The position numbers were made by a program, and so were the translations under genes. Of a stretch of 64,000 nt of DNA, positions 45,823 to 54,258 are shown one piece after another. This stretch comes from Planctomycetota bacterium (GTDB lineage: Bacteria > Planctomycetota > UBA1135 > UBA2386). The stretch lies in assembly GCA_020849665.1 (NCBI GenBank), contig JADLFX010000044.1:1-64000 (forward strand), written 5' to 3'. Within the stretch, counting starts at the first letter, position 1. Every line of letters begins with the position of its first letter. The notes beneath the pieces are model-generated. The model searched no databases. It saw nothing but the letters and a program-made list of their open reading frames with translations, and had not been told where the DNA came from.

Positions 45823-46031
45823 GCTGCACACAGGTTCACGTCCACGGGGTGGCGAGGCAACCAGAGAACGAGCCTGCGGGGCCGGCCCTTGTCGGGTCGC
45901 CGCGCGGTTCTAGAGTTCTCCGGTCGTCCCGCTAGCCGCGGATCCTGTGCCGCTCGCCCCGCGCGATGCGCTCGCTGCCGTGGACGCGTTCCCGCGCTGC
46001 CTCTCTCTCTCCAGACCCTCCCCACCCTGCG

Positions 46032-47501
46032 ATGACGCAATACAGGCTCTCCGTCTCGATCTCCGCCCTCGTCGTGCTCGCGGCCCTCGCCCACGCCCAG
46101 AACCTCAACACCCGGCTCGTGGGCTCGGCCAACAAGTTCCCGGGCGCGGTCACACCCACCAACAACTACGCCGGCGTCTGGGGCATCGTGGGCCGCAACG
46201 GCAAGGAGTACGCGATCGTGCCGGCGCGCACGGGCACGGTGATCTACGACTGCAGCAACCCGGCCACGCCGGTGGAGCGCGGGTTCATCGCCGGACCGGG
46301 CAGCACTTCGCAGCCGTACTTCTGGCGTGAGGCCAACAGCTACGGCGACTACGTCTACATCAGCTCCGAGCACGGCCCGCTGCAGGTCATCAACATGACC
46401 AATCCGGACGCGCCGGCGCTGGCCGGGACGTTCGGGACCACGGCGCACACGGTGAGCGTCGACCCGGGCACCGGCGTCCTGTGGGCGAGCGGCGGCGGGC
46501 CGCGCGGCTGCGTGCTCTTCAACGTGGCCGCGAACCCGATCGCACCCGCCGAGCTGCGCCGCTACACCACGGACTACGTGCACGACTGCCTGCCGATCCG
46601 GGGCTACGCCTATCTGGCGCAGATCTTCAGCGGCAACATGCGGATCCTCAGCACGGCCAACATCGGCAGCGGCCTGCCGATCGTGAGCACCACGACCACG
46701 CCGGGTCGCTTCACGCACAACGTCTGGGTCACCGACGACGACAAGCTGGCGGTCACGGCCGACGAGAACCAGGGCGGCTGCCTCACGGTGTACGACATCA
46801 GCAACAAGGCCGCGCCGGTGCAGCGCTCCACCTGGTGCAGCCCGAACGGCGCCACCGTGCACAACGTGTTCATCAAGGGCAAGGTCGCCCACTTCTCGTC
46901 CTACTCGGACGGCTATTGGGCGATCGACATCAGCAAGCCCACTTCGCCGAAGCCCGTGGCGCGCTTCGACACCAACGCCCTGACCGGCAGCGACTACCAC
47001 GGCTGCTGGGGCTGCTACCCGTTCCAGCCCTCGGGCCTGATCTACCTGACCGACATGCAGACCGGGTTCTTCATCGTCGAGGTGACCGCGGGCGTGCCGA
47101 ACCACTACGGCAAGGGCACCGCCGGCACCGGCGGACTCGTGCCGACCATCGACTATGCCGGCGGCTTCGCGCAGGTCGGCAACGGCACGTTCGCGATCGA
47201 GGGCACGCAGATGCGCGGCGGATCGAGCGCCGCCCTGATCCTGGGCGTCGCAGCCACGAACCAGAGCGTGCTCGGCATCGACCTGCTCGTCGACCTCGGC
47301 CAGCCGAACGTGGTGTTCACGTCCGCGACCGGCGGCAACGGCGGCGTGGCCGGCTCGGGCAGCGCGAACATCCCGGTCCCGCTGCCGAACACTCCGGGCA
47401 TCGCGGGGGCGACGCTCTACGCGCAATACGTGGTGGCCGATCCGACCAACCCGGCCGGGCTCTCCGCGTCGCGCGGCATGAAGGTCACGATCGCCCAGTG
47501 A
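46032..47501 (+). CDS. Secreted LVIVD/choice-of-anchor-B-like beta-propeller with recurring C-terminal module
   Basis: Signal peptide; LQVINMTNPDAPALAGTFGTTAHTVSVDPGTGVLWASGGG; LTVYDISNKAAPVQRSTW; C-terminus NIPVPLPNTPGIAGATLYAQYVVADPTNPAGLSAS. Confidence 0.85.
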   Translation: MTQYRLSVSISALVVLAALAHAQNLNTRLVGSANKFPGAVTPTNNYAGVWGIVGRNGKEYAIVPARTGTVIYDCSNPATPVERGFIAGPGSTSQPYFWREANSYGDYVYISSEHGPLQVINMTNPDAPALAGTFGTTAHTVSVDPGTGVLWASGGGPRGCVLFNVAANPIAPAELRRYTTDYVHDCLPIRGYAYLAQIFSGNMRILSTANIGSGLPIVSTTTTPGRFTHNVWVTDDDKLAVTADENQGGCLTVYDISNKAAPVQRSTWCSPNGATVHNVFIKGKVAHFSSYSDGYWAIDISKPTSPKPVARFDTNALTGSDYHGCWGCYPFQPSGLIYLTDMQTGFFIVEVTAGVPNHYGKGTAGTGGLVPTIDYAGGFAQVGNGTFAIEGTQMRGGSSAALILGVAATNQSVLGIDLLVDLGQPNVVFTSATGGNGGVAGSGSANIPVPLPNTPGIAGATLYAQYVVADPTNPAGLSASRGMKVTIAQ

Positions 47502-48811: not shown

Positions 48812-49426
48812 TCACTGCGTGATCGTGAAGCAGTTGGGATTCAGGATCCCCAGCTCGAAGGTCGGAGTGACCGAGCCGTACACCACCTGGAAGAGCGCGC
48901 GATGCCCTACCAGAGCCGGGTCGCGCGGGATCGGCAGGTTGCGCACCGCGAGACCGATGCTGAGGTCGAAGGTCCAGTACACCGAGGTGAGCGGATCCAT
49001 CAGGTAGGTGCCGAACTGGCCGAGGGGGACGAAGGCGTTCTCGGCGCCGAACACGTACGCGACCACCGCGCCCGCCGGCGCCGTGGTGGTGATGATCACG
49101 CTGGTGCCGATCCGGTAGCCGCCCAACGCCAGCAGCGTCGTGCGGGCGGCCGCGTTCTCGATCGTGGCCACGTCGACCGTGATACAGCCCACCCGGACCT
49201 CCGGGGTGCCGGTGAGGGTGACGGTCCTGTTGACCCACTGGCTCAGGTCCACCGTGCTGCTCTTGAGCTGCACGTCCGAGCAGGTGATCCGGTACCCAGC
49301 GGCTGGATCGCAGCCGCTGGTGACGCGCTCCACCCGGCCGTTCAGGGTGACGCCGGGGAGCTGCGCCTCGACCGCGCCGAGGGTCAGGCAGGCAGAGGCA
49401 AGAAGGGACGCAAGGAACTTGTTCAT
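48812..49426 (-). CDS. Small secreted protein ending in the recurring C-terminal module
   Basis: Signal peptide MNKFLASLLASACLTLGAVEAQ; GYRIGTSVIITTTAPAGAVVAYVFGAEN...VRNLPIPRDPALVGHRALFQVVYG. Confidence 0.75.
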   Translation of the reverse strand: MNKFLASLLASACLTLGAVEAQLPGVTLNGRVERVTSGCDPAAGYRITCSDVQLKSSTVDLSQWVNRTVTLTGTPEVRVGCITVDVATIENAAARTTLLALGGYRIGTSVIITTTAPAGAVVAYVFGAENAFVPLGQFGTYLMDPLTSVYWTFDLSIGLAVRNLPIPRDPALVGHRALFQVVYGSVTPTFELGILNPNCFTITQ

Positions 49427-49672: not shown

Positions 49673-51808
49673 ATGAACAAGACCCTGCTCGTGTTGCTCT
49701 CGTCCGCCCTGCTGGCGTCGTGGATGCCGGCCCAGCGCCCGAGCCCGAGCCACTCCGGCGGTGCCCCTCGGCCGTCGATGCCTTCGCCCTCGGCTGGACG
49801 GCCTTCGATGCCTTCTCCCTCCCCTTCGGCGGGGAGGCCCTCGATGCCCTCTCCTTCGGCGGGGCGGCCGTCGATGCCATCTCCATCTCCTTCGGCGGGA
49901 CGGCCCTCGATGCCTTCCCCTGCTCCGGCGCCACGGATGAACGCGCCCACGCGGACCTACCAGCCCTCGGCCCCTGCGCCGTCACGCGTCGGCTCGACGC
50001 CCCGGCCCTCGATGTCTTCGCCGCGGCCGGGCACGAGTTCGCCGGCGCCGAGCCGCTCGAACCCCGGGGGCTACGACAGCAGCACACCGCGCGCGACCCC
50101 GCAGCCCTACAGCGGCTGGAGCTCCGGTTCCGCGTCGCCGGGTGGGCCGGGAGCCGAGCGCATCTCGACCCCTGGCTACCAGCCGTCGCGTCCGATCCAG
50201 GTGGACCTCGGCGGCAATCGCCCGGCACCCCCCGACGCCGTGGGCGGACGCAGCGGCGCCGCGCCGCAGCCCTGGTACCAGCCCAAGCCCAGGACCCTGA
50301 AGCCGGTCGATGGCACGAACCGTCCACGCACCGACCTGAAGGACGTGTACCGCCCCGACCTCGGGACTGGCACGGGCGCCCGCTACAAGCCCGATGCGCC
50401 CGTGGTCCGGGATCGGATCGGCGAGCGCTACAGCGAGCGCTACGGGAAGGACGTCCTGCGCGGCCAGCCCGTCGGGACGCCGGGCAACGTCCCCGTGCGC
50501 GACGTCACGCCGGGGGTGGGCGCGGACCGGGGCGGCGCTCGGGGAGCGTACGACACGGGCAGGCCGCGTCCCGGCACCGGTGCCGGTGCCGCGCCCGGCC
50601 GCAGCGGACCGGGTGACGTCGTGGGCGCCGGGCGTCCCGACGCGCCCCGTCGCGGCAACGCGCCCGTGAGCGATCTCGCCGGCGAGCGCTACCCCACGCC
50701 GGGTCGCGAGTCCGGACTGCAGCCCAGGCAGCCCGCTGCCAGCACGCCACGCTCGGCGTTCACACCTGTGCGCGTGGCTCCCACGCCGGGTGCCCGCACC
50801 GGCACGGTGCCGCAGCCCCGCCTCAACAACGTGTACCGCTACCCGATCGGCGGCAGTGGCGGGGGGTACCACGGCGGCGGTTACTACGGCGGCGGCTACT
50901 ACGGCGGCTACGGTTGGAAGGGCTGCTACTGGCCCTCGTACTCGTTCTGCTTCGGCTGGGGCGCCGGATGGGGCTGCTACTCCTGGCCGTACTACTGGTC
51001 CTGCTACTGGCCTTGGACCTACTCGAACTGGTGCTACGGCTGGTCGTGGAACTGGTGCACCCCGTACTACTACCGCCCTTCCTGGTGGTGGCCGGGCTGG
51101 GCCTACGACCCGATCGACTGGTGGGGTGGCTACGGCTCGGTGCAATACGTGACCCTGCCCGCGAGCACGGTCGTGATCCAGGAGACCGTGCAGGATGAGG
51201 CCCCCGCGACCGAGGTCATCCGCACTCCCGAGCCGGCGCCGCGCGGGGAGGCCGGGGAGGCGCCGCCCGCCAAGCCCACCAAGGAGCAGCTGGCGCGCCG
51301 CGCGGTGAGCATGGGTGACTTCTACTTCCAGGAGGAACGCTTCGCCGAGGCGGCGGAGTCGTACCTGGAGGCGCTGAAGCACGCGCCCGAGGACGCGAGC
51401 CTGCACCTGGTCGCCGCCGACGCGCTCTTCGCCACGGGCGACTACCACTACGCGGCGTTCATGATCCGCCGGGCCATCGACCTCGACCCGGGTGTCGCGC
51501 GCGCCAAGGCGGACAAGCGCAAGTTCTACCGGCGCCCCTCGGTGTTCGACGACCAGATGGAGACCCTGCGCCGCTACGTGAAGGAGAAGCCCTACGACGC
51601 CGCGGCGATGCTCGTGCTGGCGTGCAACCTGCGCTTCTCCGAGCAGACCGCCGAGGCGCGGCTGGCGTTCCAGCGCGTGATGGAGATCGACCCCGGCAGC
51701 CTGATCGCGAAGGTGTTCCTGTCGGCCATGGACGCATCCGACGCGGCGACCAGGCCCGGGCCCGAGCCGAAGGCCGGCACGGAGACGAAGCCGGGCGAGG
51801 CACGCTGA
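49673..51808 (+). CDS. Secreted modular protein: Pro/Ser repeats, Gly/Tyr tract, Trp/Tyr/Cys repeat tract, C-terminal TPR domain
   Basis: Signal MNKTLLVLLSSALLASWMPAQ; (RPSMPSPSAG/RPSMPSPSPSAG) repeats; GCYWPSYSFCFGWGAGWGCYSWPYYWSCYWPWTYSNWCYGWSWNWC; C-terminal TPR-like FYFQEERFAEAAESYLEALKHAPEDASLHLVAADALFATGDYHYAAFMIRRAIDLDPG. Confidence 0.8.
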   Translation: MNKTLLVLLSSALLASWMPAQRPSPSHSGGAPRPSMPSPSAGRPSMPSPSPSAGRPSMPSPSAGRPSMPSPSPSAGRPSMPSPAPAPRMNAPTRTYQPSAPAPSRVGSTPRPSMSSPRPGTSSPAPSRSNPGGYDSSTPRATPQPYSGWSSGSASPGGPGAERISTPGYQPSRPIQVDLGGNRPAPPDAVGGRSGAAPQPWYQPKPRTLKPVDGTNRPRTDLKDVYRPDLGTGTGARYKPDAPVVRDRIGERYSERYGKDVLRGQPVGTPGNVPVRDVTPGVGADRGGARGAYDTGRPRPGTGAGAAPGRSGPGDVVGAGRPDAPRRGNAPVSDLAGERYPTPGRESGLQPRQPAASTPRSAFTPVRVAPTPGARTGTVPQPRLNNVYRYPIGGSGGGYHGGGYYGGGYYGGYGWKGCYWPSYSFCFGWGAGWGCYSWPYYWSCYWPWTYSNWCYGWSWNWCTPYYYRPSWWWPGWAYDPIDWWGGYGSVQYVTLPASTVVIQETVQDEAPATEVIRTPEPAPRGEAGEAPPAKPTKEQLARRAVSMGDFYFQEERFAEAAESYLEALKHAPEDASLHLVAADALFATGDYHYAAFMIRRAIDLDPGVARAKADKRKFYRRPSVFDDQMETLRRYVKEKPYDAAAMLVLACNLRFSEQTAEARLAFQRVMEIDPGSLIAKVFLSAMDASDAATRPGPEPKAGTETKPGEAR
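49769..49933 (+). repeat. Coding minisatellite with alternating 30/36-bp units
   Basis: Translates to RPSMPSPSAG / RPSMPSPSPSAG / RPSMPSPSAG / RPSMPSPSPSAG / RPSMPSPAPAP. Confidence 0.85.
50924..51058 (+). repeat. Degenerate ~27-bp coding repeat giving C-[YF]-x-W units
   Basis: Cys spacing 8, 9, 9, 10, 8 residues: CYWPSYSF / CFGWGAGWG / CYSWPYYWS / CYWPWTYSNW / CYGWSWNW / C. Confidence 0.7.
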
Positions 51809-51885: not shown

Positions 51886-53061
51886 ATGCCGCGCCGCATC
51901 GACACCTACCTGGCCGACCTCCTGCCCGAGGACAAGTTCGCCTTCTACGAGGTGGTCCGGGACTTCTCCGATCAGGAGATCGCCCCCAACCTGCTCAGGT
52001 GGGAGCGCGAGCACCAGCTCGTGCCCGACGACGCCATCGCGCGCATGGCGGACCTGGGGCTCTTCGGGCTGCCGATCGAGGAGCGCTACGGGGGCCAGGG
52101 CGGCGACCAGCTCGATCTGGTCCTCATGGGTCTCGCGCTCGCCTACCACAGCCAGAGCGTGGCGATCACCCCGGGAGCGGCGCTCTCGCTGGGCGCCAAG
52201 CCGCTGCAGCTCTGCGGCACCGAGGCGCAGAAGAAGGCCCATCTGCCCGACCTCGCCCACGGCAAGCGGATGTTCGTCTTCGGCCTCTCGGAGCCGGGCC
52301 GCGGCTCGGACGCGGCCAACCCGCAAGTGACCGCGCGCCGCTCGGGTTCGGGTTGGGTGATCCAGGGCGAGAAGTGCTGGTCGACCAACGCGCACTGGGC
52401 CAGCCACGTCGTCGTGCACGCACTGACCAACCCGGCCGCCCCGAACGGCAAGCGCTCGACCTGCTTCATCGTGCCGATGGACGCGCGCGGCGTGCACTAT
52501 CAGGAGATGGCCGGCAAGAAGGTGTGGGAGCAGTCGAGCACGGGCTCGATCACCTTCGACAACGTGGAGGTACCCGGCGACGCGGTGCTGGGCGAGGTCG
52601 ACCAGGGCTTCAAGGTGATGGTCACCACGCTCAACGGCGGCCGCCTGTTCATCGCCTCCCTGGCCCTGGGCTCGCTGGCGTTCGCGCTCGACAAGACCCG
52701 GACGTACGCCGAGGAGCGGATCCAGTTCGACGAGCAGCCGATCGGACGCTTCCAGCGCGTGCAGGACGTGATCCTCGACATGGACATCGCCCTGGAGCGC
52801 AACCTCACCTGGCTGCTGCACCTGTGCCGGCGCTACGACGAGGGGCAGGTGAGCCGCGAGCAGTGCGCCAAGGTCAAGGTCGACTCCAGCCGCGTGGCCA
52901 GCGACCTGGTGGCGCTGGCCATGGAAGTGTGCGGCGGCGTGGCATGCCTGGACGAGTTCGGCCTCATCCGCCATCACAACGACCTCTTCGTGACCCGGGT
53001 GGGCGAGGGCAGCAACTTCGCGCTCAAGGACCTGATCGTGCGCCCGCTCCGCCAGCGCTGA
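51886..53061 (+). CDS. Acyl-CoA dehydrogenase family protein
   Basis: YEVVRDFSDQEIAPNLLRWEREHQ; FGLSEPGRGSDAANPQVTARRSGSGWVIQGEKCWSTNA; EERIQFDEQPIGRFQRVQDVILDM. Confidence 0.9.
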   Translation: MPRRIDTYLADLLPEDKFAFYEVVRDFSDQEIAPNLLRWEREHQLVPDDAIARMADLGLFGLPIEERYGGQGGDQLDLVLMGLALAYHSQSVAITPGAALSLGAKPLQLCGTEAQKKAHLPDLAHGKRMFVFGLSEPGRGSDAANPQVTARRSGSGWVIQGEKCWSTNAHWASHVVVHALTNPAAPNGKRSTCFIVPMDARGVHYQEMAGKKVWEQSSTGSITFDNVEVPGDAVLGEVDQGFKVMVTTLNGGRLFIASLALGSLAFALDKTRTYAEERIQFDEQPIGRFQRVQDVILDMDIALERNLTWLLHLCRRYDEGQVSREQCAKVKVDSSRVASDLVALAMEVCGGVACLDEFGLIRHHNDLFVTRVGEGSNFALKDLIVRPLRQR

Positions 53062-53067
53062 CGGCGC

Positions 53068-54258
53068 TCAGGGCGTGACCTCGCGCGGGCCTGCGCCCGC
53101 GTGCAGCACGTAGAACGCAGGCGCCACGCCGAAGCCCTGCCGGTAGCGGGCCGCCACCTGCTCCTCCACCCGGGCCGCGCTGCCGGGACGGATCAGCGCG
53201 ATCGCGCACCCGCCGAAGCCGCCGCCCACCAGCCGGGCCCCGAACACCTCCGGGCAGGCGCGCGCCGCCGCGGTGATGAGGTCGAGCTCGGGGCAGCTCA
53301 CCTCGTAGTCGTCGCGGGAGGAGGCGTGGCTGGCGTCGAGCTGCGCGCCGAACCCGCGCACGTCGCCGCGGCGCAGGCACTCCACCGCCGCCGCCACCCG
53401 CACCTGCTCGGTGACCACGTGGCGGAAGCGCCGGAAGTGCGCGGCCTGCAGCACGAGCCGCGCGTCGGCGAGATCCCCCACCTCGTAGGCGGCGAGACAG
53501 GGCTCGGGACGGAGGCGGGTGCGGAGCACCGCCAGCGCGTCGGCACACTCGCGCACCCGCTGGTTGAAGCCGGTCGAGGCCAGGGTGCGCGGCTTGCGCG
53601 TGTCCATCACCAGGATCTCGAAGAGGCTGCGATCGAGCGGCACGTGCTCCACCTCCTCGCTGCGGCAATGCAGCAGGAGGGCCTTGCCGTCCTGGCCCAG
53701 CGCCGAGGCGTACTGGTCCATGATCCCGCACTGGACGCCCACGTAGCGGTTCTCGGCGCGGTGCGCGAGGCGCGCGAGGTCGAGCGGGGTCAGGCCGGTG
53801 TCGCAGAGGCGGTCGAACGCGAGCGCGGTGGCCAGCTCGATGGCGGCCGAGGAGGACAGTCCCGAGGCCATCGGCAGGTCGCCGCCGAAGAGCATCGCCA
53901 CGCCCCGGCTGCGCCCGGTGCGGGCCCGGAACTGGGCCAGCACGCCCAGCGGGTACGCGGCCCAGCCGTCGCCGGGACGGCGGTGGTCGCCCAGCTCGCC
54001 GCACTCGAGGTCGAGGGCGCCCTCCTGATCCAGGCTGCGCAGGCGGATCCGCGCGTCCGGCAGCAGCGCCGCGGCCACGTACACGCCGCGATCGACCGCC
54101 AGCGGCAGCACGTCGCCGCCGCTGTAGTCGAGGTGGGCGCCGACCAGGTTGACGCGGCCCGGCGCGAAGAACACGCGCACCGGCGTACCACCGAACTCGC
54201 GCTGGAACGCCGCGCGCACGCGCGCGACGAGCTCGGTGTTGCTGGGCGGGGCCGACAT
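53068..54258 (-). CDS. galK: Galactokinase-family GHMP kinase
   Basis: FFAPGRVNLVGAHLDYSGGDVLPLAVDRGVYVAAAL; MASGLSSSAAIELATALAFD; VGVQCGIMDQYASALGQ; RLVGGGFGGCAIALI. Substrate-binding motif deviates from GEHTDY. Confidence 0.85.
   Translation of the reverse strand: MSAPPSNTELVARVRAAFQREFGGTPVRVFFAPGRVNLVGAHLDYSGGDVLPLAVDRGVYVAAALLPDARIRLRSLDQEGALDLECGELGDHRRPGDGWAAYPLGVLAQFRARTGRSRGVAMLFGGDLPMASGLSSSAAIELATALAFDRLCDTGLTPLDLARLAHRAENRYVGVQCGIMDQYASALGQDGKALLLHCRSEEVEHVPLDRSLFEILVMDTRKPRTLASTGFNQRVRECADALAVLRTRLRPEPCLAAYEVGDLADARLVLQAAHFRRFRHVVTEQVRVAAAVECLRRGDVRGFGAQLDASHASSRDDYEVSCPELDLITAAARACPEVFGARLVGGGFGGCAIALIRPGSAARVEEQVAARYRQGFGVAPAFYVLHAGAGPREVTP

Follow-up and report, generated by a model that had tools for sequence, protein, structure and literature searches.

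Planctomycetes have unusual envelopes, with many proteins that have yet to be characterised. Arg and Tyr/Trp form the sticker pair of condensate-forming proteins. Aromatic residues have been described as acting as adhesive stickers (PMC12677899). Cell-wall preparations from other planctomycetes have yielded Cys-rich YTV proteins (PF07639; PMC8567305). Here we describe a gene from a Planctomycetota bacterium, found in a stretch of 64,000 nucleotides (hereafter the window; contig JADLFX010000044.1, positions 1 to 64,000), whose product can be compared with these systems. Like the YTV proteins it is a Cys-containing planctomycete protein, here predicted to be exported, with a possible role in a cross-linked envelope; unlike them, it has its Cys confined to an aromatic tract and lacks the YTV domain, which is not among its Pfam matches, and we class it as not being a YTV wall protein. 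With FUS-like aromatic/Arg sticker proteins and Tyr/Gly-rich adhesive proteins it shares segregated Arg-rich and Tyr/Trp-rich low-complexity blocks, whereas it is bacterial, predicted to be exported and fused to a TPR domain, and its Trp and Cys contents are far higher. Its C-terminal domain is that of TPR proteins (PF07719 and relatives), scoring above the curated cut-off and forming a predicted four-hairpin array, whereas its two N-terminal blocks and aromatic tract fall in no TPR family. No paper on such a family emerged from literature searches on planctomycete TPR proteins rich in Trp and Tyr, and the main text of the essentiality study on P. limnophila makes no mention of TPR proteins; the family is apparently undescribed.

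The gene (49673..51808, + strand, as are all features of the protein given below) is an open frame with a start at 49673 that encodes 711 residues, with a GC3 of 0.90. A predicted Sec signal peptide, MNKTLLVLLSSALLASWMPAQ, can be read straight off the sequence at 49673..49735, and some homologues (L050, for example) have similar N-termini, which end in AQ-R. Two nearby ORFs, at 48812-49426 (- strand) and 45966-47501 (+ strand), have signal-peptide-like N-termini that end in AQ. The signal peptide is followed by a basic low-complexity block of 370 residues (49736..50845), which is Arg/Pro/Ser-rich and Cys-free (44 Arg, 5 Lys, 21 Asp+Glu, 75 Pro and 0 Cys) and within which an imperfect DNA tandem repeat (49790-49921) encodes PSMPSPSAGR-type units. 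The aromatic/Cys block (50846..51136; 97 residues, including 39 Trp, Tyr or Phe and 6 Cys) comprises a Gly-Tyr lead-in (~50858-50908) and a W/Y/C core (50909-51136, residues 413-488). From the alignment of homologues, a linker (51137..51280) was placed after it, opening with the stretch SVQYVTLPASTVVIQE, which aligns with the homologues' YLYVPSTVVV stretch. A TPR domain of four helical hairpins (51281..51751) was assigned by Pfam, AlphaFold2 and Foldseek. Seven Cys are present in the whole protein, six in the tract and the seventh at residue 651 in the TPR region. The C-terminal residue (51803-51805) is Arg or Lys in 28 of 30 close homologues (the L004-L032 set), compared with a background of 36% of 136 coding-like ORFs and with 24 of 52 other homologues; this basic terminus is possibly a conserved feature of the close homologues.

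The tract had been picked out in a preliminary description of the locus as a string of 76 residues with 18 Trp, 14 Tyr and 6 Cys, the Cys being spaced by 8, 9, 9, 10 and 8. On recount, these numbers and spacings were reproduced, and the string lies in frame in the 711-residue ORF. Its position had been given as 50924-51138; it really spans 50909-51136, 50924 being the first Cys codon. By chance, 18 Trp in 76 residues would be expected with a probability of 2e-17 (assuming a background of 1.4%), and among 491 coding-like ORFs drawn from the flanks of 52 homologous loci, segments of 76 residues with at least 25% Trp+Tyr+Cys were seen only in homologues of the tract protein and in one spurious frame. 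GC content by codon position inside the tract is 0.30/0.71/0.93. A frame artefact was ruled out by GC3, by the in-frame TPR domain and by the open frames of homologues. An overlapping Leu-rich ORF (50914-51198) was also rejected as a gene, as it is a shifted reading of TAC/TGC/TGG codons.

The C-terminal domain matched Pfam TPR_2 at 43.6 bits against a cut-off of 27, was modelled by AlphaFold2 as four hairpins at a pLDDT of ~98 (with 29 family members in the alignment) and matched TPR structures in Foldseek. By Pfam match and modelled helical hairpin array, the 711-residue product is thus classed as a TPR protein. The preliminary description had spoken of a secreted TPR protein: the TPR part stands, while secretion is a prediction from the signal-peptide-like N-terminus. 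Structure prediction, which it had put forward as a check, gave no confident fold for the tract (pLDDT ~32-43), and a second AlphaFold2 alignment, centred on a related subfamily, gave the same picture, with the tract low and the TPR region highly confident; such low confidence may stem from shallow or biased alignments and is no proof of disorder. Searched alone, the tract had no match at E 10 either in Pfam, carbohydrate- and peptidoglycan-binding families included, or among PDB sequences, in agreement with the initial remark that it is no named domain. NCBIfam likewise returned no known domain, its TPR equivalogs all scoring far below cut-off.

We then compared the blocks across 69 homologues. 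These share a signal-peptide-like N-terminus, an Arg-rich, Cys-free low-complexity region, an aromatic tract of 58-154 residues and a net-acidic TPR region. Trp+Tyr+Phe averages 37.7% of the tract (SD 4.6) and Cys 5.6%, values that are partly high by construction because an aromatic-scoring rule was used to place the tract boundaries; charge signs and Cys spacing are independent of that rule. The tract is almost without charge, Lys+Arg and Asp+Glu each making up 2.9% of it and aliphatic residues 7.4%, and Cys falls to 0.02% and 0.08% in the flanking blocks. The N-terminal block, with 14.6% Arg against 1.9% Lys, has a net charge of +9.3% and is positive in 69/69 homologues; the C-terminal block has a net charge of -6.6% and is negative in 69/69. 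This tri-block pattern is the strongest conserved feature of the homologous sequences. By composition, the proteins combine aromatic and Arg-rich low-complexity blocks of the sticker type, and the maintenance of composition while the sequence drifts is the pattern that would be expected of a cohesive low-complexity block.

Homologues were detected by protein search in 50/61 genomes, usually with one strong homologue per genome, and all close homologues reaching far enough have an aromatic tract of 72-122 residues before the TPR domain (L027 is truncated). The 52 loci on named contigs carry titles of Planctomycetota or of unspecific bacterial MAGs. With a TPR profile and a threshold of E 1e-12, matches were obtained in 105/294 genomes from across the phylum. 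In distant homologues (L115-L119, L123-L125 and L127), the signal-like N-terminus, the low-complexity block, a stretch rich in Trp and Tyr and the TPR domain are all present, with Cys mostly scarce or absent; L120, L121, L122 and L126 match through the TPR domain only, lack the tract and were left out of the count. Thus, some of the 105 genomes hold TPR relatives without the tract. In all 24 loci of the window's family on named contigs, the gene is followed, as a rule immediately, by an acyl-CoA dehydrogenase homologue. Across the order, most loci have a galactokinase-like gene, named by sequence motif and not by library search, in convergent orientation downstream. In the window, the aromatic-TPR gene, the acyl-CoA dehydrogenase and the convergent galactokinase-like gene follow one another in this conserved order (51886-54258). 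Loci beyond the window's family lack the acyl-CoA dehydrogenase, and there the galactokinase-like gene comes next. A mobile-element origin was rejected, there being no plasmid match and a conserved neighbourhood. Gene order here shows vertical inheritance; the two neighbours themselves give no functional clue and no hint of an envelope role. The usual single strong homologue per genome together with conserved neighbours points to a long-kept function.

The even spacing of the six Cys in the window's protein differs from random placement (p ~4e-4). An aromatic residue directly follows Cys in 5/6 cases (p=0.06) and Trp lies within three residues after it in 5/6 (p=0.17), neither being unusual given the composition. 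The tract had been described as consisting of ~9-residue C-[YF]-x-W units. A search of the C/W core for DNA tandem repeats gave none, which rules out recent duplication as the source of such units, and among the homologous tracts at least three units occur only in the window's protein. Orthologues lacking the Cys/Trp periodicity had been named as the finding that would speak against the proposal, and these are what we found: L004, which scores best among the homologues, has 2 Cys, and three tracts lack Cys altogether. The unit with its 9-residue period is therefore private to the window's genome among the homologues compared. In the alignment of 29 rows, four of the six Cys occupy columns with Cys in 6 to 20 rows, the other two being private or nearly so; three columns retain Cys in as many as 15, 20 and 17 rows. 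From this column pattern, the period of 8-10 is a local outcome of a general rule, by which Cys stand at least ~7 residues apart, and not a repeat unit. Across homologous tracts, 32 Cys pairs within 6 residues were observed against 110 expected (z -8.9), and in 35 representatives at <=55% identity, 11 against 48 (z -6.0). By contrast, Gly, His and Asp cluster; only Pro avoids close spacing as Cys does, and more weakly. This avoidance accounts for part of the impression of periodicity: a real property, dispersed Cys, had been caught and taken for a repeat unit. Such dispersion is what would be expected of isolated cross-link points, not of chelation sites.

Several features are observed: a conserved architecture, a partition of charge between the end blocks, Cys that are confined to the tract and dispersed within it, a TPR fold (as predicted) and synteny. 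On this basis we tentatively favour, at somewhat less than an even chance, an exported self-associating envelope scaffold in which the aromatic tract is cohesive, Cys is secondary and possibly cross-linking, and the TPR domain recruits partners. In this model, the protein would be exported by Sec; the aromatic block would self-associate through pi-stacking and through cation-pi contacts with the Arg-rich block, the latter adding cation-pi or electrostatic contacts; and the molecules would assemble or anchor in the cell envelope or a surface matrix. Where present, the dispersed Cys could form occasional inter-chain disulfides that harden the assembly, and the TPR domain may bind a partner protein or another copy. 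The two AlphaFold2 models, with an unstructured tract beside a highly confident TPR domain, speak for this reading. The adhesive or cross-linked polymer suggested in the preliminary description lies near this explanation and may hold. That Cys is largely lost in distant homologues counts against the scaffold reading.

A possible, if rather unlikely, alternative is that the tract is a carbohydrate-binding, peptidoglycan-binding or lipid-interface anchor, whose exposed Trp and Tyr stack on sugars or lie at the membrane surface, so that the TPR domain is kept on the envelope with no need for self-assembly. The very high Trp/Tyr content with so few aliphatic residues would suit surface stacking better than membrane spanning, and many relatives conserve a WWYP...Y-x-P stretch where the tract ends. 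A defined site for binding would nevertheless require conservation, whereas most positions of the tract are unconserved, and both the empty Pfam search, which included binders of this kind, and the AlphaFold2 models without a confident fold argue against an anchor.

We consider it improbable that the tract serves the wall as a structural element cross-linked by disulfides, with a function like that of the Cys-rich YTV proteins known from wall preparations of other planctomycetes (PMC8567305), although its Cys are confined to it and dispersed. The YTV domain was found in 0/31 relatives, a count to be read with the control genomes, which gave no match either. The number of Cys per tract ranges from 0 to 9 and is odd as often as even (37 against 35 tracts), and distant homologues are mostly Cys-poor. 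As judged from a 95%-complete draft assembly and with the models used, canonical disulfide-forming enzymes were mostly undetected while control genomes matched: DsbA-like Thioredoxin_4 (PF13462) was found in 0/31 genomes, DSBA (PF01323) in 6/31, DsbB in 2/31 and VKOR in 1/31, with the window's genome lacking a match to each. Their scarcity is surprising in bacteria whose predicted exported proteins carry Cys. Because these enzymes are mostly undetected and Cys numbers are odd as often as even, enzyme-made disulfides lack support, and we therefore treat Cys as secondary in the scaffold model; with some tracts free of Cys as well, disulfides are unlikely to have been the ancestral function.

Still less probable is that most Cys arose as mutational by-products of Trp (TGG) and Tyr (TAC) codons, with selection acting on aromatic content and merely purging close Cys pairs. 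A single base change separates TGC/TGT from TGG and from TAC/TAT, relatives often have Trp, Tyr, Ser or Gly in Cys columns, and Cys-less members exist; against this, three alignment columns retain Cys in about half or more of their rows, as given above, and the strong avoidance of close pairs needs selection. The metal-, heme- or redox-centre scaffold raised in the preliminary description is very improbable since, even with Cys present and adjacent His-Cys pairs enriched (34 against 17.7 expected), close Cys spacing is avoided in the 72 tracts (CxC 0 against 19 expected, CxxC 1 against 18, CxxCH 0) and Cys numbers vary freely.

Taken at its broadest, the scaffold reading would make these proteins an exported tri-block class (cationic, aromatic-Cys and acidic TPR), widespread in Planctomycetota, that forms a condensed or cross-linked envelope layer without canonical Dsb machinery, an extension we regard as unlikely. 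In this lineage, where YTV wall proteins went undetected, the protein would be a candidate component of the envelope. Being mostly single-copy and vertically kept, with composition, charge partition and Cys dispersion conserved while the sequence drifts, the family would also allow a clean test of whether selection acts on low-complexity 'grammar' in a bacterial protein that is exported.
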